The position numbers and the translations under genes are program-made. This document shows positions 43,304-64,000 of a DNA stretch of 64,000 nucleotides, one piece after another. Below the pieces are notes generated by a model. It ran no database searches. It had not been told where the DNA came from and saw nothing but the letters and a program-made list of their open reading frames with translations. Each line of letters starts with the position of its first letter. Position 1 is the stretch's first letter. The stretch comes from Clostridia bacterium (GTDB lineage Bacteria; Bacillota; Clostridia; Oscillospirales; Acutalibacteraceae), in assembly GCA_017416765.1 (NCBI GenBank), contig JAFQBE010000034.1, positions 25,757 through 89,756 of the forward strand, read 5' to 3'.

Positions 43304-44662
43304 GTTGAATTAATAAACAACGGAACTATTGATAGAAAAAAATTCTTAAAAAACTTTGAAGAAAATATTCAAAAGTTAGATAGTAAAGCAAAATCACAAT
43401 TGCTTTTTTTAAAAAGATTTATAACAGATAGTTCTAAATTCTATGATGAACAAATCTTAGAAAATGAAAATTGTCAAGATATAGATGATTTGATTTATCA
43501 AAGAACATATTGGTTGACAACTATACATCAATCTTCTAAAAGAACAAAACACAATAGAGTATATAAATATTTAAAAAAATTAATAAGTGATTCTGAGTTT
43601 GCAAAAACCAATAGAGAGTTTAATCTTTTTTATTACAATGATTGTAAATCAATAAATGATGGGTTTGGTAACACTAAAATAAATGATTACAATTTTGATT
43701 TTAAAAAAACTTTTGAAAATAGTTTTTATATTATTTTTAAAGACTCTAAAAAATGCAGATTAGAAAATGGTAACTTTTGTATTGATTTAGATTCTGAATA
43801 CCAAGATAAGATTGATATTAATGTATTTACTATTACAAATATACTGCAGCAAAGAATGATGTTTTTTAACGACATCAAAATTTCAGGCAATAAAATGCGT
43901 TTGATTGAATCCATTTTATTTTTGATGATTTTTTTGGAGAAATATACCTCTCAATATTTTAGAGAAACAATAGAAGAAAAAGCAGTGTATACATATTATA
44001 AAATGATAATAAATGATTTTTATAATTTTTTAGAGGTAAATGTTTCTTTGGTTCCTTTATGTCAAGAAAAATTCACAAAAATAGAAAAGATCGAAACAGT
44101 TTATTCTTTATATGATAAAAATTTATTTGATGCTTTAGATATTAGCAGGATTTTAAGAGTTGGATGGAAAAAAGATTGTGATTTAAAAATTTTAAACCAA
44201 GAATCTGTTGCAGAACATTCATTTTCGCTTATGTCATTAGCTTTATTTTATTTAGATAAAGCTAAATATCCATACAAGGACGATGTAATGAATCTTGCTC
44301 TTTTACATGATTTGATTAAAGGGATTTACAACAAAGATATCAACCGAAAAAGTTCTAATTATTTAAAGCAAAAAAGAAACGAAAAATGTACTTTGTTATA
44401 TCTTTCTCTAATCGGAACATATGACAATCATGTTAATCTTTTTGAATATTTTAATATTGTTTATAGTTTTTGGGACAATGATGTTTCAGATACTATAAGA
44501 ATTTTTAATGATTTAGAGATAATTCAAAGATTAATTAAAATGAATTATTATATTTCAAACAAAGCAAAAATTAAAGAAGAAAAAATAAATGATTTTAAAA
44601 AAGATCTAAAAATGTTGGAAACTAATTTCGGGAGAGATTTAGCGAAAAAATTTAATTTGTAA
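43304..44662 (+). pseudogene. Continuation of the fusion gene: helical region and HD phosphohydrolase domain
   Basis: Same frame as the preceding reading frame, open from the codon after its TAA to 44662, without another stop in 452 codons. A TTG at 43400 would allow a separate protein of 420 residues but has no good ribosome site. The C-terminal 200 residues match the YfbR/HDDC2-type HD domain: ILRVGWKKDCDLK, then QESVAEHSFSLMSLAL and NLALLHDLIKGIY. The HD pair is at position 1033-1034 of the joined frame. The family's acidic residue after HD (as in HDMAEC) appears as Lys/Gly. The HD family removes phosphates from deoxynucleotides. Either a recent nonsense mutation or a recoded stop explains the layout. 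Confidence 0.7.
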
Positions 44663-44678
44663 TATAATGAGGTGTTTT

Positions 44679-47663
44679 ATGAAAATTTTATTTATTCATT
44701 TAAGTGATTTGCATTGTAATAGTTCTAAAACTATTTCAATGAAGAAAATAGATATGGCAATAACTGCACTGAAAAGCTTAGGAAATATTGATAATGCGGT
44801 TTTAATTTTTACAGGAGATCTCACTGATAATGCTGATGCAAATGAGTATAAAATCGGCAGAAAAACAATAGGTAAGTTACTACATGACATATCTGAATCA
44901 TTTAAATGTGGTTTTATCAAAACTAAAATTGTTCCAGGTAATCATGATATGATTTTACCTGAAGGAAGCAGAGGTTCTGAGGAAATTGAATATTGGGATA
45001 AAGATGAGCACTTAATAGAAGAACTTGATAGGCTAACAGAATTCTTTAATTACTCGAAAAGCAAAAAGTGTTTTGAATCAAATAAATTATATGATGTCAA
45101 AACAGAAAAAATAGGTAATGAAAATATTCAATTCTGTCTTATTAATTCCGCACCATATTCTACTCGTAGACATGAGGATAAACAATTTCATTATTTGCCT
45201 GAGTATGTATTTGGGAAACTTAATCGTGATCCAGAAGCTGATTTAAAAATAAGTTTAATGCATCATGGCTATGAGTGGTGTGAGTGGAAAACAAAAACTT
45301 CATTAAAAAAAGTGTTGGAACAAGACGATATTGTGTTTTTTGGTCACGATCATAAATCAGAAGCATATTCAATGATTAAATCTACTGGAGAAACCATAAA
45401 TATTATTATGGGTGGACGTTTTAATTTGTCTGTAGATCAAGAGAGTGCTTTTAATGCTTTGGTTTATGATTCTGACGTTAAAGAGTTTCTTGTTTATAGA
45501 TTTGAATGGAGCATTGATTCACAAATATTTTGTAAACAGCATCTTGGAAATATTCCCAAGAAGTCACATTCTATGAGACCAACAGATGAATATCTTAAAA
45601 AGCTACTTGAAGACAAACATAAAATAAGCGATTATTTTACAGATTATTATGTTTTGCCTAAGCTGTATGCTGAAGGTGATATGTTTGAAGATTCATATAT
45701 TGAACGAATAAGTGTTGAAAATATTTTTGAAGCTCTTGAAACCGAACGTATTATTAGAATAACGGGAGATTCCGGAACTGGAAAATCATCACTTTTAAGA
45801 TATTTATATTACAAATCAATTGATAATGGATATTTACCGCTTTTAATTGAAAAGAGAGATTATAAAGATAGCAATATTGAGAAAATGTTTAAAGAAATGT
45901 TTGTATCTCAATATGGTGAAAAAATTGATAATGGATATGATTTCTATGACCAAGGAGATAGAACGAGACAAATCATATTTATTGATGATATCGACTTGAT
46001 TTCTAATCAAAGATCAAGAGAAAAACTTTTTTCGTACGTTTTAGATTCTGGGCGAATACTGATATATACAACAAAAGAAATGCTTCAAGATCTGGAGAAT
46101 ATAATTAAAGAAAGAATGCATGGCAAAAGAGTCAGTTCTTTAGAACTTTCTCCGTTTTATAAAGAAACACGTGATGAACTTGTATATAAAATTTGTGATC
46201 TCAAAGGAAGAAAAAATGAAGATGCTGAATCAACAATTATTGCACTTGATTATATGATTCAATGTCAAACCACTTTCTTTTCATTAACTCCGGGATGTAT
46301 TCTTCAGTATATTAACTTTTTCTTAAATGGCGGTGCAGGAAAAGGAAAGGGCTTTCAAACAATTTCACTTGTCTTTGAGACCAACCTAAGAAATTCTATG
46401 CTTTCATGTACAAATGATAATGATGCCGGCGTATACTTGACATTGTTAGAATTTGTTGCCAACAAAATGTATTTTGAAGATTATAAAGATTCTATATCAA
46501 TTTCTTCATTAGAGGCTACTGTTTCTTTGTTTAATAACAACAGAAAGGCAAATGTTAATCCGAAACATTTTTTGGAAGTGTGTAAAAATTCAGAAATTTT
46601 AAAAGAAAAAGACGATTCATTTGATATTCAATTTTGCAATAAAAATACATATGCATATTTTGTTGCGAAATATTTAAGTAAAGAACTCGAAAAAAATCCT
46701 GACAATACAGAAAAACTACTTTATGTTATGAATCGTATTTGTTTTGGTATTAATGAAACTATTATTTTGTTTTTATCATTCATAAGAAGCAATACGCGTA
46801 TAATAATGAAAATAGCTTATAAAGCTTTTGATTTATTAAAAGGCTACGATGAGTGGAATATAACAGAAAATAACTTGCCACTTTTAACACAACCGTTAAA
46901 GTTTTCCAATCAACTTCCGAGCGAAGAGGAAAGAAAAGAGGCAAAGCAAAATACGGAGAGAATGGAAAAAACAAAGCAAGAAATAGTGAAATTCAAAGGT
47001 GCATTAGATTTTAATGAAAACGATGTTGAAAAAGAACGTTTTGTTCTTTTACGATCATTAAAATTCATTATGCTTATTGCAAATACTCTCGTTGATCAGT
47101 ACGGTTCTTTTGACGCAGAAGAGCTTGAGCTAATGAGTTTAGCGCTTTATTCTTTACCACAAAAATTAATTTATGCTTTTTTAAAGCCTTATCATGACAA
47201 TTTAGATAAACATGTTCAAGAACTTATGGAATTTGCAAAAGAAAACTTTGGCGATGAAAAGATTTCTGAAGATGATATAAAAGAAATGATTGGTAAGGCA
47301 TCGGTAATATATGCTTTAAATGTTCTAAATGCCGTTGCTTATAGAGCTTCAAATCAAAATACAATGATTGCTTTGAGAGAATTTACGTGTAAAACTCCCA
47401 ATTACAGTATAATGAAACTAATGATGGAGGAGAATTCTAATGATTCAAATGAATTCGTGACCAAGGCAATATCATTGTTTAAGAAAAGCCATGGTCAAAA
47501 TGATATGTTTGTTAAATCATTAATTTCTTTGATAGCAAGAAAGCATGTTATGTATTCTGATGTCGATAGAAGACAGGTTGATAAATTAATATCTGCCAAG
47601 GTATTATCTTCGAAAAGCAAAAAAGAACTTTTGCTTTCTCGCGGTAAAAAAGAAGAGTGCTAA
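44679..47663 (+). CDS. Second phosphoesterase-STAND-like NTPase fusion protein
   Basis: Protein of 994 residues with the same plan as its neighbour. The calcineurin-like phosphoesterase (residues 1-270) has HLSDLHCN, IFTGDLTDN, VPGNHDM, LMHHGYEW and FFGHDHKSE. The NTPase has Walker A GDSGTGKS (363-370) and Walker B IIFIDDIDLI (Asp436, Asp437). A helical C-terminal half of about 500 residues follows, with no HD domain. The ATG at 44679 follows GAGGTG and lies 16 bases after the HD gene's stop; an ATG four codons earlier is inside the ribosome site. The two proteins probably work together, with the P-loops as switches and the phosphoesterases as effectors. That is inference from architecture. 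The stop codon lies inside a structured RNA element. Confidence 0.82.
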   Translation: MKILFIHLSDLHCNSSKTISMKKIDMAITALKSLGNIDNAVLIFTGDLTDNADANEYKIGRKTIGKLLHDISESFKCGFIKTKIVPGNHDMILPEGSRGSEEIEYWDKDEHLIEELDRLTEFFNYSKSKKCFESNKLYDVKTEKIGNENIQFCLINSAPYSTRRHEDKQFHYLPEYVFGKLNRDPEADLKISLMHHGYEWCEWKTKTSLKKVLEQDDIVFFGHDHKSEAYSMIKSTGETINIIMGGRFNLSVDQESAFNALVYDSDVKEFLVYRFEWSIDSQIFCKQHLGNIPKKSHSMRPTDEYLKKLLEDKHKISDYFTDYYVLPKLYAEGDMFEDSYIERISVENIFEALETERIIRITGDSGTGKSSLLRYLYYKSIDNGYLPLLIEKRDYKDSNIEKMFKEMFVSQYGEKIDNGYDFYDQGDRTRQIIFIDDIDLISNQRSREKLFSYVLDSGRILIYTTKEMLQDLENIIKERMHGKRVSSLELSPFYKETRDELVYKICDLKGRKNEDAESTIIALDYMIQCQTTFFSLTPGCILQYINFFLNGGAGKGKGFQTISLVFETNLRNSMLSCTNDNDAGVYLTLLEFVANKMYFEDYKDSISISSLEATVSLFNNNRKANVNPKHFLEVCKNSEILKEKDDSFDIQFCNKNTYAYFVAKYLSKELEKNPDNTEKLLYVMNRICFGINETIILFLSFIRSNTRIIMKIAYKAFDLLKGYDEWNITENNLPLLTQPLKFSNQLPSEEERKEAKQNTERMEKTKQEIVKFKGALDFNENDVEKERFVLLRSLKFIMLIANTLVDQYGSFDAEELELMSLALYSLPQKLIYAFLKPYHDNLDKHVQELMEFAKENFGDEKISEDDIKEMIGKASVIYALNVLNAVAYRASNQNTMIALREFTCKTPNYSIMKLMMEENSNDSNEFVTKAISLFKKSHGQNDMFVKSLISLIARKHVMYSDVDRRQVDKLISAKVLSSKSKKELLLSRGKKEEC

Positions 47664-51532: not shown

Positions 51533-51640
51533 TAGCTCCCGAATTAACGGGAGCTATCCTTTTTGATTTTAATGCTTATCGGGGTCAATCACAGAACCGT
51601 CCCCTGATTGGTGCTGATTGGTGGAACCGTCCCCCGATTG
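51531..51640. repeat. Dispersed hairpin repeat, copy 2
   Basis: Perfect hairpin GATAGCTCCC/GGGAGCTATC (51531-51558), then GTCAATCACAGAACCGTCCC CTGATTGG followed by two further variants of the last half. Its right half encodes the final 24 residues of the adjacent minus-strand gene. Confidence 0.8.
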
Positions 51641-52249
51641 ATTTATTGGAAAATCAACTGAAAGATTAGTTAATTCAGCGAATTTTGCTTTAGCATATTG
51701 TACATCTGCTTTAGAAACAATAGCATTAAATGTTCCTTTTTCTATATTGAATTTTTCTTCAAAATAATCTAAAAATAAATTGCCGTTGTTGCACCACAGG
51801 TCATTAAATTGACCTACAACCAATTGACCGTTCGTGGAGCCTTTTTCGTAAAGATCGGTGACAAAAACATTATTGTCAATTGATGCAATAAAAACAAGAT
51901 CAAATTTTGTTTCACGAAATAATTGCTCGGTTATTTGAGAAATATTGTCGATAGTAAATAAATCTGAATAAATACTGCATACCCCATTATTATCAACGAT
52001 AACAAAATCTTCAATACACTTAGGAAAGCCCTCCTTTTTTTCATTGAGCATATTTAATGCTTGTACCAATTCATCTGTAGTCATGGTATTGTTTGATTCC
52101 CCAAATATATTCGAGAGTGCTTTATGAGCCTTTTCCATCTTGTTTGCTAAATCTTTTGTATTTATCGATTTGTTAAGGCTGTGGGTAATTGCTCTTTTTA
52201 CTTTTTTAATGTCTGCGTTCAATATGTGAATTACTATTTGTTTGTTCAT
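51569..52249 (-). CDS. Putative immunity protein of the first RHS toxin
   Basis: Soluble protein of 226 residues without a recognised family. It is mixed alpha/beta, with DFVIVDNNGVCSIYSDLF and DLVFIASIDNNVFVTDLYEK, and a helical N-terminus. It directly follows the RHS toxin gene, the usual place of an immunity gene. The ATG at 52249 has GAGGTAG six bases before it; an ATG at 52267 overlaps the RHS stop codon (ATGA) and could also serve through coupling. The last 24 residues (NQSGDGSTNQHQSGDGSVID...) are encoded by the dispersed repeat, so the original C-terminus was replaced or extended. Confidence 0.55.
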   Translation of the reverse strand: MNKQIVIHILNADIKKVKRAITHSLNKSINTKDLANKMEKAHKALSNIFGESNNTMTTDELVQALNMLNEKKEGFPKCIEDFVIVDNNGVCSIYSDLFTIDNISQITEQLFRETKFDLVFIASIDNNVFVTDLYEKGSTNGQLVVGQFNDLWCNNGNLFLDYFEEKFNIEKGTFNAIVSKADVQYAKAKFAELTNLSVDFPINQSGDGSTNQHQSGDGSVIDPDKH

Positions 52250-52263
52250 TGTAACTACCTCTT

Positions 52264-55200
52264 TCATATAATTGCTTTAGAAAGTGACTTTACAAATATT
52301 TGTATAGCCATAGTTAAACCGCCCATCAGCATAGGTATGTCGTTCACTACGCCGGTACCGCCTGTAATTAAGTTATCTGTAAGAGTTGTTATTGCTATAG
52401 CGCCAACAGCAATAGTTGCAGTTAATAAAGCTTTTTTTAATATTTTTGATAATTCTGTGTTTTTTACTTTTTTTAAATTTAAATAAAATGAATAGAAAGC
52501 ACCACCATTGTTATCAAAAGTGATTTTCATTTTTAGATGTTTAAACAGTATAATTTCAATTGTGCCGATATTTTTACCTTTGCTATAGCCAGAAAGTTTA
52601 CAATACTCCTTTACTTGTTTGCTTGCATCTGTTCCCAAAGGTTTTACTTCCCACAAGTAATTTTTACTATTTTTAGTAGCGACAATATCTATTTCTTTTT
52701 TTGAGAATATTTTTTCAAGTTGTATGTTAATATACCCTTTGGCTTTTAGTTTTCTAGCAATAAAAAGCTGTGCCAATTCATGAAAAGCAGTATAAAGATT
52801 TTTTCCATTAAGTAGTAAAACCAAAACGGCTATTTGTGAATCGTCAAATATGCTACTATTAGTTACATCAACCATATTATTGAGAAGAGTAACTGACATA
52901 TGTCCAGTAGGATCTGTATAGATAATAGGATTATTATTGCAATATGGCATCATATTAGCAGTTGAATAATAGAAACCAATTTTAATATATGAATCCGCAT
53001 TAATAAACCTACCCCAAAGCGGGTCGTAGTAGCGGCTTTGCAGGTAGTAATAACCTGTTTCAGTGTCATAGTAATACCCACGGTAGCGAATGGGATTGAG
53101 GATACCAAGGGTATCAGCCTGTGAGCCGGTTATTTCAAGCAGATAGCCCCACGCATCGTAGAGATATTCCGCAACAACCGTGCCATTGGAATTGACTATA
53201 GCATAAACATCGCCCTGCAAGTTCTTGACATAATAGTACATTTCGCTTGAATCTGCAGTCAGCTTTGCAAAACCTATAATTTCATCGTTTTCATCATAGA
53301 TAAAATGCAGCGTTGTAGTGCCGTCGGTCTGTGAAATCAGCCTTCCGTCCTGCGACCAAGCATAGGTATAGGTTGCGGTAACGCCGTTTTGCGTTACTGT
53401 TTTGTGCGTTCTCAAGCCGCTGTCGTTATACTTGAAGGCAAGCGACATATCCGCTGTTGCAATGCTTGCAAGCTCTCTGCCTGCAGTCCAGGTATAAGTT
53501 TTACCATCATAGGTTAAAGGATTGCCTATAGCATCATAGGTAATGGGTTTATCATTAACCTTAGTCAGCTGGTCGGGCCAGTTTTCGTTGCCGTATTCAA
53601 AAATGTATTCTTCTTCAATACCGTTTTCACCTGTGGAATCTGTCCATATAATGTATTTATATGTAACATTACCGCCGTTATCATACTCGGTATAAGTATC
53701 CCAAGTAAGGTTTACGGCTTCAAGCAACTGACCTGCTTCGTCGTAATAATAATCCGTACGGTCAATTGAGCCGGGAACAGTTTCGCTTGTAATATTGCCG
53801 TTGGCATCGTAGGTGTATTCCCAGGTGAAGCTGCGGGCATGTCCGCTGACGGGGTTAATAACAGCAGATATGCTTTCGGGTATTTCGGAAGTATTATTCC
53901 CGACAGATTTATATGAATAATTGGTTGTGATTTTGTTTGCATCTTCCCAGCCGCCAAAGCGTGTAACCGTGCTTTCTTTCCTGCCGAAATAGTCAGTTAC
54001 GCTTGTTTGTGTGAGAGCGTCTGTGCCGTTGCCTACGGTAAAGGCTGATGTTGTTTTACCTGTAGTTTCGCTGTAGCCGCCGTTTGTTAATTCGGCATAA
54101 TCATAAGTAAATACATAACCGTTGGCTGTTTCAACAAAATTATCATCTTCATCATATGATGACTGATATACAACATTACCGGAAGAATTTTTAACGGTAT
54201 AGGTTGTTTCGCCGTAGGTTGTAACAAAGCCCGTTTTCCTGTCCGTTGCAGAAGAAAGCTCGCCGCCGGCATATGTGTAGGTATATTCATAGCCGCTGTG
54301 TGCTGAATCGCACTCAATTGCGGTTATGTTGCCGTCGGTATCGTAAGTGTAGCTTACAACCTGACCGTTACCAAATGTAACGGAATTCATTTGGCTGCGG
54401 TTTGCGCCCGTGCCGTAGGAATATGAAGCAAGGGTCTGATTGCCTACCTTTACCGTTTTTTGATTGCCGAACGGGTCATAGGTAAAGCTGTAGTTAACAC
54501 CGTTGCCTGTTGAAATAGAGGTCAGCCTATCGTCTGTATAGCCGTAGGTGTTGCTGATTGTAAAAGGCTCACCGCCGTAGTATTCGTTGCTGACCGCTTG
54601 CGATACATAGGCAAGACCGAGCATTGCATCGTAGCTGTAATTAACGGTGTTATCCTCAGCATCTTTAAAAGATGTGAGTGTACCGTTTAATGTATTATAG
54701 CTGTATTCAACCGTATTTCCGAGCGAATCGGACGCAGTTGCAAGGAAATTCTTATCCTCTGTATATGTATATGTTTCGGAAATGGTTTTGCTGCCGTCAG
54801 ATGTTGCGGAATAGATAAGGTTACCTGCCGAATCATAGTTTGTGGTTGTTGTTGCATGGCAACATACACAAACACAATCAGCTGCACTTGTGCAGGTACA
54901 AGGACAACCTTCGCCGTACTCGCAAGCTGAACCGCAAACACAGGTTGCCGGTTCCATTGTGCCGTTTTCTTCTACATCAATATCGTTCGCATCAAAATAG
55001 AAAGAAAAATCGGATTCGTAAAATTCAAGCCCTGCAAAATACAGCGGCGATACCTGATAATCGTTGAGAACATGAAGGTTAATATATTCCGTTCCTGCAG
55101 GCACGGTAATACAGCAAAGCATATACTGCCAACCTGCTATTGATGTATCAATAGCGTATGATGCGCTGACAGTTTCGTTGCCCTCGCTGTCAAAAGCTGA

Positions 55201-58011
55201 AAGCATAATACCGCTGAATCTGGTATCGTTCGTATGTGCGGCAAAAGGAGCTTTAAGCCATACCTCTGTATTAAATGTAACATCGTTTTCGCCGTCCGTC
55301 AAGCTGCTTACATCAATTTGGCTGTATGCTCGGCTTAAATCAAGCGGTGAAGCGCTTACGGAATACACTGTTTCACCTGTTGCACCGTCAATTGGGCGAG
55401 CGTTATTTATATTCAACTTTGCTTGGCTTTCAGCTGTTGCGTTGGTAAGTGTCTGCGAAGCAAGCAGGTTTGTTCCTTCATCGCTTGATACACTTGCTTT
55501 AAGCTCGCCATCGGAATAGTAGTAGGTGGCAGAACCTTCATTTTCCGAGTCGAATGTACTACGGATTTCGTAATTCTTATCGTAGTATACTGTTTGAGTA
55601 TATGAGGGTGTATTCTCATCTCCGTCATATTCGGTATATACTCTTTCGTACGGAGAAATAATATCAAATTCAACCCTTTGATCAAAGAGATATTGGTTAT
55701 TATCTGCATCATAAACCCGTTTTGTGTATGCTGAAACACGCCCATTTGTATACTCAATTTCCAAACGTGATTGGTCTATGTTTTCAATTAATATAAGGTT
55801 GTTGTTGCTATCGTATTCATAACGAACAGTTTCACCGTCAGCATAGGTTGCAGTTTTAAACAACGGAACTTCAGGGGTAGTAGTGTCGTATGTATATGTA
55901 ACCGAAATATTTGAGGCTGTCTGTGAGCCATTTGGTGTAACAGTTATCCTTTCGCCGGAACTCGTGTATGCTCCTATTTCCGATACTGTGCGCGGGGTAG
56001 AATACGGGTCGGGAATAGTAAGGCGAATTTCTCTGCCTGCACCATCAGTTATTTTACCGATAGTAGAAGAATACGCAAATGAAATTTGCAAAGAGGAATC
56101 ATTTTGTTTGTTAATTATCTTGTTTATCCTACCGTCGGAAGTGAATCTGTACTGATATTCTTCATCTTCAAAATACATGTTTGAAAAATCACTTAAACTT
56201 GAAGCATCAGATTCTATCCATAAAACGGTTTTTTCGCCGTCCGGGCTCACATATTTCTGCGTTCCATCTTCAAGCGTTTCTTCAAGGTTAAAATACAACC
56301 ATTTTCCGTCAGCACCGATATATCTGTGTACACCGCTGCTGTAAATAAGTCTTCCATAATAATTCCATTGCCAGTTTGTGCCGGCACCGTCACCCCTTGT
56401 CCATGAAAAACCTGACGAATTATATAGCGCACTATCATAAATTCTGCACAAGTTAACCGGCATAAGGTTACCCGCTAAGCCAAGTTCTTCGCGAACTACT
56501 ACCAAGGTGTTAGTAATATCATTAACATAGGCAGTACCGGCTCTACCCATATCTATGCTGTGAAACTCAAAATCTTCATCAAGACCGTAGGCAAGTTTAT
56601 AGTTAATTGTAAACAATGGTCGTTTTGATGAAAGACCATCTTCATTGCCGATTTTTACATTGCAATATTCACCTGAATCAGTAATAGGTTTTATTGCAAA
56701 ACCGTAATTATTTGTAACACCGATATTCCACATATTAAAGGCTTCGGTAATATCAAAAGTATATGTACCTGCCGTTGCTATTGTATGAGCATCTATATAA
56801 TCATTACTACTTTGCGGTATTGCTGTGGTTTCTGTTGACCACTCCTCATTTACAAGGCTGAGCCCAATCGTGTTTGTAAATCCATTATCTATAGATAACG
56901 GTGCACAGTAAAGGGCTACTGTAGCATCTGTTATTATACGCTCACCTAAAAGCAAAGAGTTTTCAATATTCAGAAGCATTTGTGAATTGTATGCTGTTTC
57001 ATTTTCTGTATACTTCTGAACATACATATATGATGTTGTATCGCCCGTATAGTTGCCTACACAAGCATTCACTATATGACTTCTGCTGTAAGTTACAACT
57101 GTAGGGTCTAAAACGACAGGATAAACTCGGCTTTTATCTTCTAACCAAGCTGTGGACGGTAAATAAGTTATAAGGTTGCCGGTTCGGCTTCGATATATAT
57201 TTACCTGAATATCATTACTTGTGTTGCCTGAATTATCATACATATACGGTGAAAGAATAGTAAAAGTTTCTTCTCTATCAGCATTATAGAAGCTAATACT
57301 GTTATCTTGATTAAGTTCCCATGACATTCCGGGAGCAGAAAAAGAAAAGCTTAATGCATATCCCATATCAGGTGCAGAATTGAAGATAATGTTTTCTTTT
57401 AGTCCGTTTTCAATTACCAAATATTCAATATCCGTATCATCAAATACATCTTCATATTTAATTTTTGAAATATTATCTTCTATTGATACTGCAGTTTCAT
57501 CAGCTGTTAACTGTACAGGTTTATTATCAATTATTTCAGAAGATTTTTCTGTAGAAACTCCGCTCAATTTAAAATTAAGTTTATAAGAATTATTAGCTAT
57601 TGAAATGTTGTTATCTGAACCGAGTTTGTCCGGCAAAGAAACCGTGAACGAATTTGCTTTGTTTTGCCAAACATCTTCTTCATTGATAGTCGTTTTTTCT
57701 AAAGTGTTGTCAATATCTTTCAAAGTTCCATCTTCATCATAATAATGAATAGGTGTAGTAGAAATGATATCAACTTTTGTTCCATCTTTTCTGTTGAATG
57801 TTTTTGTATATTCATTGGTTTTTTCTTCTGTTTCAAGTAAGATTTCAGCAGGTTCTGATTTAACTGAACTCTCTTCTGAAACTTGTGCTGATTCAAGTTT
57901 TTTAGTTTCTTTTATATTTGCAGCAATTACCGAGAAAGGCAAAATCTGCAAAACAATTATGACAGATAAAATAATAGATATGGTTTTCAAAAGTATTCTG
58001 CATTTTTTCAT
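52264..58011 (-). CDS. RHS/YD-repeat polymorphic toxin with nuclease-like tip
   Basis: Secreted giant protein of 1915 residues. A signal peptide (residues 1-30) is followed by a DNRLRE-type beta domain (about 310-470), a long array of YD repeats, and the RHS core motif GYYYLQSRYYDPLWGRFINA. A Cys-rich patch with ten cysteines sits near residues 1022-1052 (CVCGSACEYGEGCPC and neighbours). After YTDPTGH comes the variable toxin tip of about 210 residues. It contains EIDIVATKNSKNYLWEVKP, matching a PD-(D/E)XK nuclease core (Asp1775, Glu1788, Lys1790), then a hydrophobic helix pair (LLTATIAVGAIAITTL, and LMGGLTMAIQIFV). I start at ATG 58011 rather than the GTG nine bases upstream, which is too close to AAGGA. 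The tip is AT-richer than the body. Confidence 0.85.
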   Translation of the reverse strand: MKKCRILLKTISIILSVIIVLQILPFSVIAANIKETKKLESAQVSEESSVKSEPAEILLETEEKTNEYTKTFNRKDGTKVDIISTTPIHYYDEDGTLKDIDNTLEKTTINEEDVWQNKANSFTVSLPDKLGSDNNISIANNSYKLNFKLSGVSTEKSSEIIDNKPVQLTADETAVSIEDNISKIKYEDVFDDTDIEYLVIENGLKENIIFNSAPDMGYALSFSFSAPGMSWELNQDNSISFYNADREETFTILSPYMYDNSGNTSNDIQVNIYRSRTGNLITYLPSTAWLEDKSRVYPVVLDPTVVTYSRSHIVNACVGNYTGDTTSYMYVQKYTENETAYNSQMLLNIENSLLLGERIITDATVALYCAPLSIDNGFTNTIGLSLVNEEWSTETTAIPQSSNDYIDAHTIATAGTYTFDITEAFNMWNIGVTNNYGFAIKPITDSGEYCNVKIGNEDGLSSKRPLFTINYKLAYGLDEDFEFHSIDMGRAGTAYVNDITNTLVVVREELGLAGNLMPVNLCRIYDSALYNSSGFSWTRGDGAGTNWQWNYYGRLIYSSGVHRYIGADGKWLYFNLEETLEDGTQKYVSPDGEKTVLWIESDASSLSDFSNMYFEDEEYQYRFTSDGRINKIINKQNDSSLQISFAYSSTIGKITDGAGREIRLTIPDPYSTPRTVSEIGAYTSSGERITVTPNGSQTASNISVTYTYDTTTPEVPLFKTATYADGETVRYEYDSNNNLILIENIDQSRLEIEYTNGRVSAYTKRVYDADNNQYLFDQRVEFDIISPYERVYTEYDGDENTPSYTQTVYYDKNYEIRSTFDSENEGSATYYYSDGELKASVSSDEGTNLLASQTLTNATAESQAKLNINNARPIDGATGETVYSVSASPLDLSRAYSQIDVSSLTDGENDVTFNTEVWLKAPFAAHTNDTRFSGIMLSAFDSEGNETVSASYAIDTSIAGWQYMLCCITVPAGTEYINLHVLNDYQVSPLYFAGLEFYESDFSFYFDANDIDVEENGTMEPATCVCGSACEYGEGCPCTCTSAADCVCVCCHATTTTNYDSAGNLIYSATSDGSKTISETYTYTEDKNFLATASDSLGNTVEYSYNTLNGTLTSFKDAEDNTVNYSYDAMLGLAYVSQAVSNEYYGGEPFTISNTYGYTDDRLTSISTGNGVNYSFTYDPFGNQKTVKVGNQTLASYSYGTGANRSQMNSVTFGNGQVVSYTYDTDGNITAIECDSAHSGYEYTYTYAGGELSSATDRKTGFVTTYGETTYTVKNSSGNVVYQSSYDEDDNFVETANGYVFTYDYAELTNGGYSETTGKTTSAFTVGNGTDALTQTSVTDYFGRKESTVTRFGGWEDANKITTNYSYKSVGNNTSEIPESISAVINPVSGHARSFTWEYTYDANGNITSETVPGSIDRTDYYYDEAGQLLEAVNLTWDTYTEYDNGGNVTYKYIIWTDSTGENGIEEEYIFEYGNENWPDQLTKVNDKPITYDAIGNPLTYDGKTYTWTAGRELASIATADMSLAFKYNDSGLRTHKTVTQNGVTATYTYAWSQDGRLISQTDGTTTLHFIYDENDEIIGFAKLTADSSEMYYYVKNLQGDVYAIVNSNGTVVAEYLYDAWGYLLEITGSQADTLGILNPIRYRGYYYDTETGYYYLQSRYYDPLWGRFINADSYIKIGFYYSTANMMPYCNNNPIIYTDPTGHMSVTLLNNMVDVTNSSIFDDSQIAVLVLLLNGKNLYTAFHELAQLFIARKLKAKGYINIQLEKIFSKKEIDIVATKNSKNYLWEVKPLGTDASKQVKEYCKLSGYSKGKNIGTIEIILFKHLKMKITFDNNGGAFYSFYLNLKKVKNTELSKILKKALLTATIAVGAIAITTLTDNLITGGTGVVNDIPMLMGGLTMAIQIFVKSLSKAII

Positions 58012-58433
58012 GATAATCACTATTCCTTTCTTTAATGATAATGAATTATTAGTTGTTTTTATTGTAGTAACTTTTTAAACCATTTCAATTATGCCTCCTG
58101 AATGTTAATATGAAGACTATTAATCAGTTGTATAATTCAAAAACCTTTATAACATATTTATTGAAATAAAATGCCAACAGTAACACGTTTTCGCAAAATT
58201 AATTTATTTTCTACTATTTTTACATAGAGTTCACATATTATTTGTTGAAGATTACAATTAAAATAATTGTCGCATAAAACAAAAAGCTACCGCAAAAATG
58301 CGATAGCTCAACTGCCATATTAAACGTTAGCATAACATGTTATAATTTTTGTCTAAGAATAATTATTTTATTAAAATCACAAATATTTGATAAACTATTT
58401 ACACATTCGTAAAATAATTTGTTTTGAAACACA
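58012..58433. other. Upstream region of the RHS gene and end of the TIR operon
   Basis: No gene is seen. The region is very AT-rich, with a stray AGGAGG at 58095-58100 on the minus strand not followed by a useful reading frame. The RHS promoter must lie here, but no clear -35/-10 pair stands out. Confidence 0.4.
58277..58307 (-). terminator. Terminator of the TIR operon
   Basis: Read on the minus strand, GCTATCGCA pairs with TGCGGTAGC (one G-U pair) around TTTT, followed by TTTTTGTTTT. It lies about 130 bases after the last gene of the operon. Confidence 0.75.
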
Positions 58434-59162
58434 CTATTTTATGTAGTTATGGTGAACCCAACCATCAACATCATTATCGACTATTATGTGACACCATTTC
58501 TCATCTTCGCTGTACTCTATAAAGAGTACATGAGTTCCTTTTTTTAAAATCTTCAAAGATGGATATGAAGTTCCCGGACCCTCTCTGAAATTGACATCTT
58601 TAATAATCTGTTTTTGTTCAAGCGATGGTTCTTCTGTGATTTCATCTTCACCATTTGATTCAATAATTATTGGTTTATAGGTTGATGCAATTTGAAGTTG
58701 TTCATTTTCAAATTTATTATATATATTTGAAACGACAGAAATCATATCAATATATTCCTTATTGACAACGGAGTTCAACATATCAGGTAGGGATACTAAA
58801 AGAATTACAATCAGGTATAGTAGAATGAATTTGCCTATGTGTAATTTCTTTCCGAATTTACCTTTTATTTTATTGATGCTCAAAAAATATCTTTCCATCA
58901 GAGAGGAGCATTTGTTTGCTACCTGTATGTAATTCTTCCTGAAAACAAATCGAAAAATATAATCAGACAAAATCACATAAAGAATTTTCACAGCTTTTTG
59001 CAAAACAGCTAAAAATATTTTTATTATTTTCGGAAATATTAACACCGCAGCAATCCATGTTGCTAACACCAATACTGCAATAACCAAAGCAGCTCTCGAA
59101 AGCTGAGGCCAATCGCTTATTTGTGACCATAATCCGTAATAAATATCCTCAATTTTTTCCAT
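58434..59162 (-). CDS. Two-TM protein with C-terminal SH3b domain
   Basis: Membrane protein of 242 residues. Membrane segments lie at about residues 21-45 (VIAVLVLATWIAAVLIFP) and 110-130 (FILLYLIVILLVSLPDML), with a basic helical region between them. After an acidic linker the last 60 residues form a bacterial SH3 domain (VNFREGPGTSYPSLKILKKG, then WCHIIVDNDVDGWVHHNYI). SH3b domains bind peptides or cell-wall material. The ATG at 59162 has AAAGGGTG eight bases before it and is preferred to the GTG at 59171. It is the last gene of the four-gene TIR operon. Confidence 0.75.
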   Translation of the reverse strand: MEKIEDIYYGLWSQISDWPQLSRAALVIAVLVLATWIAAVLIFPKIIKIFLAVLQKAVKILYVILSDYIFRFVFRKNYIQVANKCSSLMERYFLSINKIKGKFGKKLHIGKFILLYLIVILLVSLPDMLNSVVNKEYIDMISVVSNIYNKFENEQLQIASTYKPIIIESNGEDEITEEPSLEQKQIIKDVNFREGPGTSYPSLKILKKGTHVLFIEYSEDEKWCHIIVDNDVDGWVHHNYIK

Positions 59163-59174
59163 TTTGTACACCCT

Positions 59175-60101
59175 TTATTCATCAATAGCCTGATAAGGAT
59201 TGTTGTCATTTGTGATTCCTTGCAAGCGTTCGCTATTAGCTTTTTTACTATTTTCTAAAGACGAAGCAGAAATTGCAGGAAGTTGATTCTTAAGCGCCGC
59301 TGTTGCTTGCTCCTCTGTAAGCATTCCATCATCAACAAGTTTTTTAAATAAATTGCTTAAATTATTAAATTGTTTTATTTTTTCTTCAAAATCATTACTT
59401 CTTATTTGCTTAAGCTCGCCATATGCTTCTGATATTGACTTTTTCCCTGATACAACATCAGTAAGAATAGCTGTCGTATCAGAAATTGTGGTATTTGAAA
59501 GATCTGCAGCTGCCTCTAACTCTAACCGTTTGAGTTCAGCTTCATTGTCAATTGATATTTTTTTCTTCAGATGCCCTCTATACAATTCATCATTTTCAAT
59601 CGATACTTTTATATTCGAAACTTTGGCACCAATAAGCTCTGAGGTAAGAGCTGTTTGTTTTGATTCCAAATCGCTCAGTAAAGAAGCTAATTCATCTGGG
59701 TTATATAAGAGGGCCATATCTTTAATTGTATTCTCAATACTTGAACTGACAAAAGAACACATATCGCCAATTTTTAATTTATATATTTCAATGGGATTAT
59801 TGACCAAACAAGAAGCTATAACAGCAAACTTAAATTTGTTTACCATATTGGCAGAAAATGCCTCAAATGAAAATTCAATATTGTGCGCTGATATATCTAC
59901 TCTTATTTGCTTGCTATATTTTCCGTTTCGTATTTGGCCGATTGGAATCGAATTACGGTTTTGACTATTGATTTCAAGTATTCCGTTTTCTCCTGAAAGC
60001 AGAATCGCTTCTCCATTTGAAGGAACTGGAAGTTTTACAAAAAATCCGGTTGTATAAGGTGACTCACTAATTATAGGGTTATAAGTTTTTATTATTGACA
60101 T
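59175..60101 (-). CDS. SPFH/band-7-like protein (tentative)
   Basis: Protein of 308 residues without a membrane segment. A beta-rich N-terminal domain (ILLSGENGILEINSQNRNSI, then RVDISAHNIEFSFEAFSAN and FKFAVIASCLVNNPIEIYKL) leads into a long helix rich in Glu, Ala and Lys (KKISIDNEAELKRLELEAAA). This order recalls SPFH/stomatin proteins, which form membrane-bound rings; the match is by eye and tentative. The C-terminus ends in a disordered Asn/Ser stretch. The start follows AAAGGAG and overlaps the preceding gene by 10 bases. It may form a scaffold for the TIR system. Confidence 0.5.
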   Translation of the reverse strand: MSIIKTYNPIISESPYTTGFFVKLPVPSNGEAILLSGENGILEINSQNRNSIPIGQIRNGKYSKQIRVDISAHNIEFSFEAFSANMVNKFKFAVIASCLVNNPIEIYKLKIGDMCSFVSSSIENTIKDMALLYNPDELASLLSDLESKQTALTSELIGAKVSNIKVSIENDELYRGHLKKKISIDNEAELKRLELEAAADLSNTTISDTTAILTDVVSGKKSISEAYGELKQIRSNDFEEKIKQFNNLSNLFKKLVDDGMLTEEQATAALKNQLPAISASSLENSKKANSERLQGITNDNNPYQAIDE

Positions 60102-61627
60102 ATCAATTTCTCCTTTGAATTATTTTGTATGAATAACATATTGTTTAAATAGGCAATCATATGTGCAGAAAAATCAGGCAAGCTGTCCCTGCTCTTAGTT
60201 AGCCAAGATATCACTCTTTCGAAATCTTCTTTTTTTCCGGTAAACGCCAATTCTCTGATAAACTTTTCTGTGCTTGCCCATTCTCCGGAATTAGCATTGT
60301 ATTCAGCAAAAAAAGAATTAAGTATTTCAAACAGGTTCTTTCGCATATGATGATAGCCCAATACATAATGTATTATCGGTCGCATTTTTTCTCTTGTGTT
60401 TTTTGAGTTTGAACTGTTTACAAAAACAAGCAATTTATGTATTTCATCTGTAGTAAAATAATCAAAGAGTAATAACCATAAAAATGTTTGTGCAATATAA
60501 TCTTTTTCACTTTTTTGACTACAGTTGGTAAAATGGGAGTTCAGAATATTAATAATACTGTTTGAAATAAACTCAGAGCGATGAGCAAAACCCATTATGT
60601 ACATAAAATACTTTTCTTTTCTTCTTTCTGACGAAAAAAGACATTTGTTAATTACATCGAGCATTTTTCCTTCGCATTTTTGAGCATACCCCTTTGCCCA
60701 AAGTCTAAAGCTTACCATCCATAAATCATTTTTTTCGCTTATCCACTGAAGTAGCAGATTCTCAACATTATCTTTGTTAAGATTTTTTTCGTAAAAGCGT
60801 TCTATAATCATAGAAAGCGTAGATATATTGTAGTTATTAAGATTTTTGCGTAATTTGGTTATAATTTTTGATATCGTATAGTCAAAATCAATGGTAGCAT
60901 ACTCAGCGACTCCGTTTTGAGCGGTTGCACTTAAAAACCAATCGTTTGAGAGACCGATATGTAACAACCAATCTATCACTACGCTTCGAAATTGAGGATA
61001 CATAATCCATAGCCAAATTCGAATTCTTTCGGCCATAGTTTCATCTGAAAAACAAATACAGTTAGTATCTATCAATCCAGTGTGTGTATTGCGTTTGACA
61101 GAAAGAGTTCTCATAAATGCAGTTTTCAGCAAACGATATCTTGACTCGAAAGGAGAATCAAGCTTTAAGTCTTCCTGTGTCGGTTGGGTTAACTCATCCA
61201 ACCGTGATTTAAGTTCATCACATACATAATCAAAATTTCTTTCTTCAATTCGATCTAAAGAAGCTACTGCAATAAGTGCCGATAGCGTTTTTGTGTTCTT
61301 GTATTGATCAACAAACTTTTCAAAATCATCTTCACTTTTAATCTGTGATTTTTCTTTAGACACTTTACTTGCTAAAGCATTTGACTCACTTCTTTGAATA
61401 TCACTATCATTAATTGTGTCGGCATTGATCACATTTGAATAATCACCATACATATTAATCGTTATATATGGCAGATTTTTATCACTATTTTGGTTTAATG
61501 TTGTTATTAAATCAATAAGTTCTTTGGCTTTTCCCTCATGCTTTTCATCTGTTTTATCAGCGACATTGCTTTCTTCTGAATATTCTTCGTTAATATTTTC
61601 TTGGAATGTTTCCTTAATATCAGTCAT
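60092..61627 (-). CDS. Large helical partner protein with N-terminal signalling-type motif
   Basis: Protein of 511 residues with no recognised family and no P-loop. The first 50 residues are acidic and disordered. Residues 56-78 (core ITINMYGDYSNVINADTIND) then carry a motif that matches the C-terminus of the TIR protein without gaps: N, aromatic, G, three residues, NV, aliphatic, later I..S.IQ. The remaining 430 residues look like all-helical HEAT/TPR-type repeats rich in Trp and Phe (IWLWIMYPQFRSVVIDWLLH). I infer a sensor or adaptor that contacts the TIR protein through the shared motif. GAGGA precedes the ATG; the TIR gene lies 10 bases upstream. Confidence 0.6.
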   Translation of the reverse strand: MTDIKETFQENINEEYSEESNVADKTDEKHEGKAKELIDLITTLNQNSDKNLPYITINMYGDYSNVINADTINDSDIQRSESNALASKVSKEKSQIKSEDDFEKFVDQYKNTKTLSALIAVASLDRIEERNFDYVCDELKSRLDELTQPTQEDLKLDSPFESRYRLLKTAFMRTLSVKRNTHTGLIDTNCICFSDETMAERIRIWLWIMYPQFRSVVIDWLLHIGLSNDWFLSATAQNGVAEYATIDFDYTISKIITKLRKNLNNYNISTLSMIIERFYEKNLNKDNVENLLLQWISEKNDLWMVSFRLWAKGYAQKCEGKMLDVINKCLFSSERRKEKYFMYIMGFAHRSEFISNSIINILNSHFTNCSQKSEKDYIAQTFLWLLLFDYFTTDEIHKLLVFVNSSNSKNTREKMRPIIHYVLGYHHMRKNLFEILNSFFAEYNANSGEWASTEKFIRELAFTGKKEDFERVISWLTKSRDSLPDFSAHMIAYLNNMLFIQNNSKEKLICQ

Positions 61628-61637
61628 ATTGCTGTCC

Positions 61638-62207
61638 TCAAGATTTGTTAGTATCAGTTGTTCTTGGTTGTATTTGAGAGTTCGATATATTGTTCACGTA
61701 AAGGACATTATTATTGTTGCCAAAATTATTTATTATTGATTTATGAGCAGAATTTGAAACATTTGGGGCTTTGTTTGAAAAATCTGTTTTATCTTTTCTT
61801 ATCTTTTCGTTGATATAATAAGCAACTTCACTTTCAACAGTTTTGTCTGCCGATAAGTATACTATGTCTTTGCTCATCCAATCCAATCTGGCGCTTCCGA
61901 ACACAACCGGAATGATAAAACGTTGTTTTTCCGTTGCTTGTCTTAATTTAATAATTGATGCTTCTTGTCGTGTATATTCCTTTGATAAATATTTTTCAGA
62001 AATAAAAACTACTACATAATGACACTCATCGTTATACACTTTATTAAGGTATATCAATAAATCTTCACCGATCATATTTCCTTGTTCTGCGGGTGCGAAA
62101 AACACTTTTAATTGATAACGCTCTTTTAAAAGCTTTATAACTCTACCAACATATTCTTCGTCTTCTGTTGCGTAAGATATACCGACATCATATTTGTAAT
62201 CTGACAC
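61638..62207 (-). CDS. TIR-domain effector with C-terminal signalling-type motif
   Basis: Protein of 189 residues. The TIR domain covers residues 6-130: YDVGISYATEDEEYVGRVI (box 1), VFFAPAEQGNMIGEDL and VVVFISEKYLSKEYTRQEAS. Glu82 in YTRQE fits the catalytic Glu of NAD-cleaving TIR enzymes. After a short Ser/Asn linker, residues 158-180 (INNFGNNNNVLYVNNISNSQ) form an Asn-rich motif that matches the neighbour's N-terminal motif. I prefer the GTG at 62207, eight or nine bases after AAAGGA, to the ATG at 62216, which directly touches that site. It is the first gene of the operon and probably the killing enzyme of an immune system. Confidence 0.82.
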   Translation of the reverse strand: MSDYKYDVGISYATEDEEYVGRVIKLLKERYQLKVFFAPAEQGNMIGEDLLIYLNKVYNDECHYVVVFISEKYLSKEYTRQEASIIKLRQATEKQRFIIPVVFGSARLDWMSKDIVYLSADKTVESEVAYYINEKIRKDKTDFSNKAPNVSNSAHKSIINNFGNNNNVLYVNNISNSQIQPRTTDTNKS

Positions 62208-62410
62208 TAAAACCATCCTTTCGTATCTGTTTGTTGAATTTTCAATTGAAATTATCTTAGAATTTGGGAATAACTAAACACTCATATAGTGCATATGACA
62301 AAAAATGATAAAAGTAACGCAAAATTTGTAAAAAAGTTTTATAAATGTAAAAAAGTCAAAAAAGCATGATTTTTTGAAATTTTTGGGCTGAAAAATGCAT
62401 AGTAAATAAA

Positions 62411-62496
62411 CAGGATAGCTCCCGAATTAACGAGAGCTATCCTGTTTGATTTTAGTGCTTGTCGGGGTCAATCATAGAACCTTCCTCTGATTGGTG
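62411..62496. repeat. Dispersed hairpin repeat, copy 3
   Basis: Hairpin GATAGCTCCC/GAGAGCTATC (62414-62441), then GTCAATCATAGAACCTTCCT CTGATTGG. The left part separates the TIR promoter region from the gene at 62452; the right part encodes the last residues of that gene (HQSEEGSMIDPDKH). Confidence 0.75.
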
Positions 62497-63012: not shown

Positions 63013-64000
63013 TCAGATACCTGAAAAAGCAATAATGCCCAAAACGAGTGCGCTAAATCCAAAGCCTATATAAGGATTGCCAGTCATAGCTGTTACTGCA
63101 GCTGTAAGTTCGGCTGTAAAAACGCCTACACCTACTGCAGCACTTGCAATGTGTTCAAATGCATTAAATCGAATATCATCATCAGTCATTAACGGATTCC
63201 AAAAATCCTTCAATATATTTATGGCCGCACTTACAACACCTGATGCCGTACTGATTTTAATTTTTCCACCCAAAGCAATTGTAGCAATATTTTTCAAATC
63301 GCCATATAACCCTTTGGCAGAGAACAAAGCATTAAGCCACTCATCGCCATTAAGTACCATAACTCCAATTTCTAATACTTCAGCGTAATTTACGAGTTTA
63401 GAATCTTCGTCAGTTGTTCTTTCTAAAAAATCGACAACAGCATATACATTCATATCGTGCCGTTCAGCATAATCCGCAATATATATTAAACACGCAAAAA
63501 TAGTTGCAACATTAACTGCTACTTGTTCTGTTGAACTTAAATACCCACTCGGATCACTATATCTCACCGGATTATTCAGGCAATAGGCAAACATATTAGT
63601 GCCTTGGAGAGCATTGCCGGCTACGAGATAGGCATCGGCACTGATGAAGCGGCAGAGCTCGGGGTCATAATAACGGCTTTGCAGGTAGTAAAGTCCGGTT
63701 TCGTTATCGTAAACATAGCCCCTGTAGCGCAACGGATTGGCTAAAGCAATATCTTCATAAATTGAATTGTTTACTGTTACAGAAATAGGCTTTCCCCATG
63801 AATCATAAGCGTATTCAACTATTACATTGCCATTGCCGGTAGCAATACCAATAACATCACCTTGCAGATTAAGCATATAGTAGAACGGACCGCCGCCGTA
63901 GTAAAAGCTGTACGGTTTACCGTCTGCCGTGTAGTAAATTGTCAGCGGACCATAATCCAAACCATCGGATTCAACACGAACAAGCTTATCGCCGACATAA
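63013..64000 (-). CDS. RHS polymorphic toxin, 3' part (5' end outside window)
   Basis: The last 328 codons of a second RHS gene; the frame is open to the window edge. The YD-repeat end (LVRVESDGLDYGPLTIYYTA) and the core motif GLYYLQSRYYDPELCRFISA are clear, ending NNPVRYSDPSGYLSS. The variable tip is about 170 residues with a different sequence from that of the first RHS protein. It is helical with hydrophobic stretches (VAVNVATIFACLIYIADYA, and ASAAVGVGVFTAELTAAV), so it may act on membranes. No nuclease motif is seen. Confidence 0.85.
   Translation of the reverse strand, partial: YVGDKLVRVESDGLDYGPLTIYYTADGKPYSFYYGGGPFYYMLNLQGDVIGIATGNGNVIVEYAYDSWGKPISVTVNNSIYEDIALANPLRYRGYVYDNETGLYYLQSRYYDPELCRFISADAYLVAGNALQGTNMFAYCLNNPVRYSDPSGYLSSTEQVAVNVATIFACLIYIADYAERHDMNVYAVVDFLERTTDEDSKLVNYAEVLEIGVMVLNGDEWLNALFSAKGLYGDLKNIATIALGGKIKISTASGVVSAAINILKDFWNPLMTDDDIRFNAFEHIASAAVGVGVFTAELTAAVTAMTGNPYIGFGFSALVLGIIAFSGI

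Follow-up and report, generated by a model that had tools for sequence, protein, structure and literature searches.

A window of 64,000 nucleotides from a Clostridia bacterium (contig JAFQBE010000034.1) was analysed, and it carries on its minus strand a four-gene operon encoding, in order, a TIR-domain effector, a partner bearing a short motif that matches the effector's tail, a protein with a predicted SPFH fold and a membrane protein. The effector gene, an open reading frame (ORF) at window positions 61638-62216 with a PF13676 match, encodes 192 aa from its ATG, with the TIR domain at residues 12-124 and the motif in the C-terminal tail. After 10 bases it is followed by the partner gene (60092-61627), whose 511-aa product, here called the adaptor, has no known domain and a body homologous to the adaptors P0006, P0009 and P0014 of the relatives described below. 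The adaptor gene overlaps the third gene (59175-60101) by 10 bases; the latter encodes a 308-aa protein for which fold prediction gives an SPFH/stomatin-like domain (residues 18-201, positions 59499-60050) and a helical C-terminal part. The fourth gene (58434-59171), 3 bases further on, encodes a 245-aa membrane protein that ends in an SH3_3 domain (PF08239; residues 192-245, positions 58437-58598). Terminator-like stems on the same strand flank the operon closely: one of 17 pairs (62408-62447) follows the preceding ORF and lies just ahead of the TIR gene, and one of 11 pairs (58284-58309) lies just downstream of the fourth gene. Seven terminator-like sites were counted between 57900 and 63100, versus a mean of 2.1 in shuffled sequences. 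A first-pass annotation had described a unit of two genes, effector and partner; the two are indeed adjacent, but the real unit is the operon of four.

The same annotation had called the first protein a TIR effector, and PF13676 (TIR_2) agrees (48 bits, cut-off 28). Its Glu85, within SEKYLSKEYTRQE, stands at the position that we take to be that of the catalytic Glu of the NADase. A gapless match of 23 positions with nine identities had also been reported between TIR residues 158-180 and partner residues 56-78. This match was recovered: when the TIR protein is counted from its ATG it covers residues 161-183, the earlier numbers denoting the identical segment counted from position 62207, three codons after the ATG. 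By both identity and BLOSUM62 score, the segment is the best ungapped window across the two whole proteins. The effector-side motif is INNFGNNNNVLYVNNISNSQIQ (TIR residues 162-183, positions 61668-61733, minus strand) and the partner-side motif is INMYGDYSNVINADTINDSDIQ (adaptor residues 57-78, positions 61394-61459, minus strand), and a single degenerate DNA pattern written from the two copies fits both.

The strength of the window match was assessed against composition-preserving shuffles of the terminal regions in three set-ups that differ in the lengths taken from those regions; its score was reached in 21 of 3000, 2 of 1000 and 7 of 2000 shuffles. When the TIR tail was compared with 380 ORF N-termini from the DNA examined, one outscored the true partner (52 versus 47), namely that of the window ORF at 51569-52267. 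By itself, then, the window pair is suggestive, with a chance probability of about 0.002-0.007 as estimated from the sequences. It becomes convincing because three relatives of the operon repeat the matched pairing.

These relatives come from the genomes G624 (locus L044), G935 (L051) and G1063 (L056), the window's own genome being G000; the genome sets searched overlap one another. Among 300 genomes of the same family, the third protein (P0003) found one real relative, in G624, where an 18-kb stretch encodes a 311-aa PNP_UDP_1 protein (34.1 bits, cut-off 25.1), a relative of the adaptor, a relative of P0003 and a membrane protein in which Cu_amine_oxidN1 (70.5 bits, cut-off 24.2) replaces SH3_3. 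A two-row adaptor profile run on 394 genomes of the order then reached G935 (E-value: 4.9e-50, profile positions 88-537), and a three-row adaptor profile run on 197 genomes of the family of G935 reached G1063 (E-value: 8.5e-130, positions 60-517). Effector and motif did not lead to G624 or G935, since the former was reached through the third gene and the latter mostly through adaptor positions outside the motif. The G1063 match takes in the motif region, yet it rests mostly on the adaptor body. The three distant operons share the gene order of the window but carry other effectors, and within the operons successive genes overlap or lie no more than 80 bases apart. The effector position in G935 is occupied by Trypco1 (61 bits, cut-off 24.6) together with a protease of the trypsin type (Trypsin_2, 51.5 bits, cut-off 27.6). 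In G1063 it is occupied by a 271-aa protein (L056 9258-10073, minus strand) that has no match in Pfam or PADLOC and no significant one among PDB sequences; this protein is a candidate new effector enzyme.

In every operon the C-terminal tail of the effector matches the N-terminus of its own adaptor without gaps (4/4, the match in G1063 being weak). The effector and adaptor segments are GLMQVCGNSADTIIATQGSVIYGGINFG and GDAHVKDNHADNLGVFQNSIIHGDVLFG in G624, KSKFSIINNGNIGPQKNVNIETLNGDI and ESKFSTQIDGNISTQYIFNIDQMLGDI in G935, and YIDNRNAKIGHQKITNIGTVNGDIN and KFSTQNDGNITTQNIFNIGSMTGGIS in G1063, the last two being a portion of a 36-residue match. The own-pair scores for the window, G624, G935 and G1063 are 47, 47, 54 and 37, respectively, and shuffles did as well in 7, 1, 0 and 33 of 2000 cases. 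Cross pairs, compared in a 3x3 and later a 4x4 test, scored 19-33 in 11 of 12 cases. The remaining one, the G935 tail with the G1063 adaptor, scored 53; the adaptors of these two genomes have a similar motif despite their differing effectors, and the reciprocal comparison (G1063 tail with G935 adaptor) gave only 31, at another place. For three of the four tails the own adaptor is the best-scoring partner, far ahead of the others; for that of G1063 the lead is narrow (37 versus 31). The true pairing has the highest sum among all 24 possible pairings (185, the next being 178). Fisher combination across the four systems gave p = 9e-8 from shuffles and 2e-7 from ranks, values to be read with the knowledge that we chose the tail and N-terminal lengths and that the G935 and G1063 systems are not fully independent. 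When 87 adjacent co-directional ORF pairs from the DNA examined were ranked, two pairs from these operons came out on top, and the L056 pair (37) took fourth place, with an unrelated pair scoring 40 ahead of it; this ranking omitted the L044 PNP-adaptor pair, which overlaps by 80 bases, and 13 loci that were duplicates of the four systems or from E. coli. Weighing against the pairing in G1063, five tails out of 374 unrelated ones fit its adaptor no worse than the tail of its own effector. The eight motif segments contain 27-55% N, Q or G and 27-42% I, L, V, F, Y or M, with one proline in total.

The first-pass annotation had proposed a variant immune switch with an amyloid-type signalling motif, and had named absence of the motif from homologues of both proteins, or a lack of co-variation between its copies across genomes, as grounds for refuting it. 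The idea withstood this check and is partly supported: the four operons hold three clear matched pairs and the weak one of G1063, and a change in one copy goes with a change in the other, whereas the remainder of the partner stays recognisably homologous. The adaptor bodies of the window and G624 (P0002 and P0006) align with an E-value of 6e-11 from residue 101, and the adaptors of the relatives are 17-20% identical to P0002; the motif regions of the window, G624 and G935 adaptors cannot be aligned with each other. From these comparisons it appears that the adaptor body is inherited and that the tag, as we call the matched segment, is exchanged together with the effector. The DNA pattern written from the two window copies had no match in viral_contigs, and two stretches of genome_contigs that fit it were judged to be chance, their frames lying inside or opposite unrelated genes. 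When a simple regular expression for the motif was run over the fetched loci, mostly TIR loci, three places matched, and no pair of TIR tail and neighbour was among them. With the strict DNA pattern the window motif type was thus not matched elsewhere; it is the co-variation that repeats, not the sequence.

The partner had been described as lacking an NTPase domain, and for the four adaptors (P0002, P0006, P0009 and P0014) there is no Pfam NTPase match at E-values up to 1. The Walker A pattern is absent from all four and from all 12 core proteins examined, which are therefore not NLRs. The G1063 adaptor (P0014) has a sub-threshold match to VMAP-M1 (15.1 versus 25 bits). The third protein is predicted to have an SPFH fold; none of the third proteins (P0003, P0007, P0011 and P0016) has a Band_7 match in Pfam, and hhalign against four E. 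coli SPFH proteins gave a probability of 0.8%, with both profiles shallow. In all four members the third protein itself lacks a hydrophobic segment. The fourth protein of the window (PF08239, 37.2 bits, cut-off 27) has hydrophobic clusters at residues 22-70 and 107-137. Such clusters are retained in G935 and G1063, while the C-terminus varies, being SH3_3 in the window, Cu_amine_oxidN1 in L044 and without a recognised domain in L051 and L056. In PHROGs, the only matches below an E-value of 0.01 were, for P0001, to families whose function is unknown and, for the SH3 part of P0004, to an amidase. Searches of PDB sequences with P0001, P0002, P0003, P0015, A7, A8 and A9 gave nothing significant (best E-value: 0.044). 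As judged from gene content and homology, the four operons demonstrate a conserved three-gene core (adaptor, SPFH-fold protein and membrane protein) preceded by an interchangeable effector.

Ten families of NLR-associated bacterial amyloid signalling sequences (BASS), BASS1-10, were reportedly defined by Dyrka et al. in 2020. Published accounts describe bacterial amyloid signalling with NLR-type NTPase receptors and report BASS from multicellular actinomycetes, cyanobacteria and archaea (PMC7889193, PMC9815663, PMC12261475); the motifs are said to occur mostly with Bell and less often with CHAT or TIR domains (PMC7889193). The operons closely resemble BASS systems, as outlined there, in that a motif of about 20-28 residues at the C-terminus of an effector has its counterpart at the N-terminus of the next gene's product, and in the use of several effector types, TIR included. 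They differ in that the partner lacks an NTPase or NLR domain, in that genes for an SPFH-fold protein and for a membrane protein follow, in that the operons have no recognised Bell domain, and in that the four members fall within one order, beyond which the search covered 391 class genomes with the window adaptor alone. Because the NLR partner is absent, we have not filed the operon as a BASS-NLR system. Fungal PNP_UDP effectors are reported to carry amyloid motifs termed PUASM (PMC12261475, PMC9815663), and L044 likewise has a PNP_UDP_1 effector whose motif is matched in the neighbouring protein; the L044 operon, however, has no NLR.

A second set of parallels is found in ternary conflict systems. 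The pairing of Trypco1 with trypsin is known from conflict systems (Kaur et al. 2020, PMC7159879), and the same report names this pair and TIR among ternary conflict-system effectors and mentions Band7-like scaffolds. What these operons have in common with the VMAP/iSTAND ternary systems, in the form presented by PMC7159879 and by Kaur et al. in 2021 (PMC8195603), is these effectors, the principle of a homotypic adaptor and the Band7-like scaffolds; they have a short motif in place of the folded adaptor domain. No MoxR, vWA or VMAP component was found among genes 2-4 of the four operons using Pfam and the Walker A pattern. The predicted SPFH fold of the third protein, encoded beside a small membrane protein, recalls QmcA-YbbJ and HflK/C, but the operons of the window type couple the SPFH protein to putative toxic effectors and, as noted, that protein itself lacks a hydrophobic segment. 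Finally, the window TIR protein weakly matches the PADLOC ThsB model of Thoeris (E-value: 5e-6). Unlike Thoeris, it is encoded in an operon of four genes that includes an adaptor and has no ThsA match beside the TIR gene, genes 2-4 giving no PADLOC match at E-values up to 0.1.

The best reading of these sequence comparisons is that the operon represents a form of amyloid signalling that is new but akin to the NLR-associated kind, with matched motifs of amyloid type that would recruit interchangeable toxic effectors. We regard it as close to certain that the operon and its co-varying matched tags are real, and it is very likely that the tags bring effector and adaptor together. A defence role is probable, and the odds are somewhat in favour of the tags acting by amyloid-type templating. 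The entire chain, with sensing by the SPFH and membrane proteins included, would make the operon a modular membrane-linked signalosome, to which we assign a probability of roughly 0.55. According to this model, the SPFH protein and the fourth protein would form a ring or dome at the membrane, and the fourth protein would use its wall-type domain to sense phage entry or damage to the envelope. The complex would then cluster adaptors, whose N-terminal motifs might fold into a beta-arch or amyloid-type seed, and this seed would template the matching motif of the effector, which would thereby be concentrated and activated. In the window, activation of the TIR protein could lead to NAD+ cleavage or TIR filament formation, and thus to growth arrest or cell death that protects the population. 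Cross-firing between neighbouring systems would be prevented by the identity of the motif.

A bolder version of the model, which we offer tentatively, is that these operons form an undescribed inflammasome-like class in which an SPFH cage at the membrane takes the place of the NLR wheel: by clustering an adaptor that has no NTPase, it would nucleate a prion-like motif, which in turn would fire one of several plug-in toxic enzymes. No description of the four-gene unit was found in the open-licence PMC literature among the matches listed. If the model is true, these operons would show that the templating switch stands on its own and can be plugged into other sensors, and membrane damage would have a direct input to it. 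The natural matched and mismatched motif pairs can also be used for studying the evolution of specificity in prion-like signalling.

The strongest competing explanation, though an unlikely one, is that the tags are homotypic docking elements (a non-amyloid beta-arch, a beta-zipper or a segment that folds upon binding) which keep the effector inactive until a signal arrives, much as an antitoxin would. The comparative evidence bears on matching and not on fold, and the tight spacing of the genes suits an obligate complex. Set against this, the composition of the segments resembles that of amyloid-type motifs, and we infer that likeness between the two copies would be more natural for templating or co-assembly than for the heterotypic interface of an inhibitor. 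An improbable alternative is that the operon is a housekeeping envelope-stress module whose effector serves the envelope response of the host and not an anti-phage function. It would account for the predicted SPFH fold and for a membrane protein with wall-type domains, and there is a parallel in Bacillus subtilis, where an SPFH protein is reported to link a phage-shock protein to the membrane (PMC8581546). The effectors, however, are the usual enzymes of conflict systems, and the distribution is sporadic: besides G000, one of 300 family genomes, the same one among 229, and one of 394 in the order. That the window match is a chance likeness of N-rich disordered tails is very improbable: the figures for the window pair alone (2/1000 to 21/3000 shuffles, and one better match among 380 unrelated N-termini) leave some room for it, but the three relatives repeat the matching with other residues, with a pooled p of about 9e-8 to 2e-7. 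It is just as improbable that the genes serve as cargo or immunity genes for the RHS polymorphic toxins that by eye flank the operon on both sides (PF05593 above its cut-off for part of 52264-58020 and below it, 15.8 versus 22 bits, for 63013-63960), since terminator-like stems set the operon apart and no RHS gene was seen by eye in the ORF lists around the three relatives.

The four-gene operon is rare. When 229 family genomes were finally searched with a profile, G000 and G624 were recovered along with one short broken stretch, and the other non-self match of P0003 among the 300 family genomes was a short stretch with stops. The window adaptor alone found only itself among 97 relatives and no relative on plasmids or phages; among 391 class genomes its three non-self matches all lay within unrelated genes. 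A tight scan with P0002 gave 12 pattern stretches in genome_contigs and two in viral_contigs, none of them confirmed. On plasmids there was no match for P0003, P0006 or P0009, and the TIR query (P0001) gave six records that matched over the TIR region only, none covering more than 80% of the query; P0009 had no match on phages, and neither did profiles A1, A2, A4 and A8 in viral_contigs. Four weak matches were dropped: G835 (L052) has no operon at the site, that in G1045 (L057) is an unrelated ORF at a contig end, and those in G606 (L043) and G482 (L060) are short with several stops.

Several neighbouring loci were also observed. The RHS-type proteins on both sides of the operon (52264-58020 and 63013-63999, both on the minus strand) have unrelated C-termini, and just behind the first of them lies the 232-aa ORF at 51569-52267, which has no Pfam match; together these look like polymorphic-toxin loci. 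Further away, on the plus strand, positions 41210-43303 encode a 697-aa protein with a Metallophos (calcineurin-like phosphoesterase) match of 49.8 bits and an NPHP3_N match just under the cut-off (24.4 versus 24.8). It is followed by genes at 43400-44662 and 44667-47663, and is possibly a STAND-NTPase conflict protein heading a second putative defence operon. Directly after the operon of G1063 (L056 2688-6220, minus strand) lie ORFs of 163 and 192 aa, an AAA ATPase (PF00004, 51.4 bits) between them, and then a protein of 424 aa that contains an N/G-rich motif, NIHGDNHGVAVAKNTGSISNIS, in its interior; this is perhaps another conflict system that uses tags. Elsewhere in the window's own genome, contigs C43, C46 and C30 (L045-L047) carry three further TIR_2 genes in longer open frames, and the 726-aa TIR protein of L045 has, by eye, a zinc-ribbon-like start.

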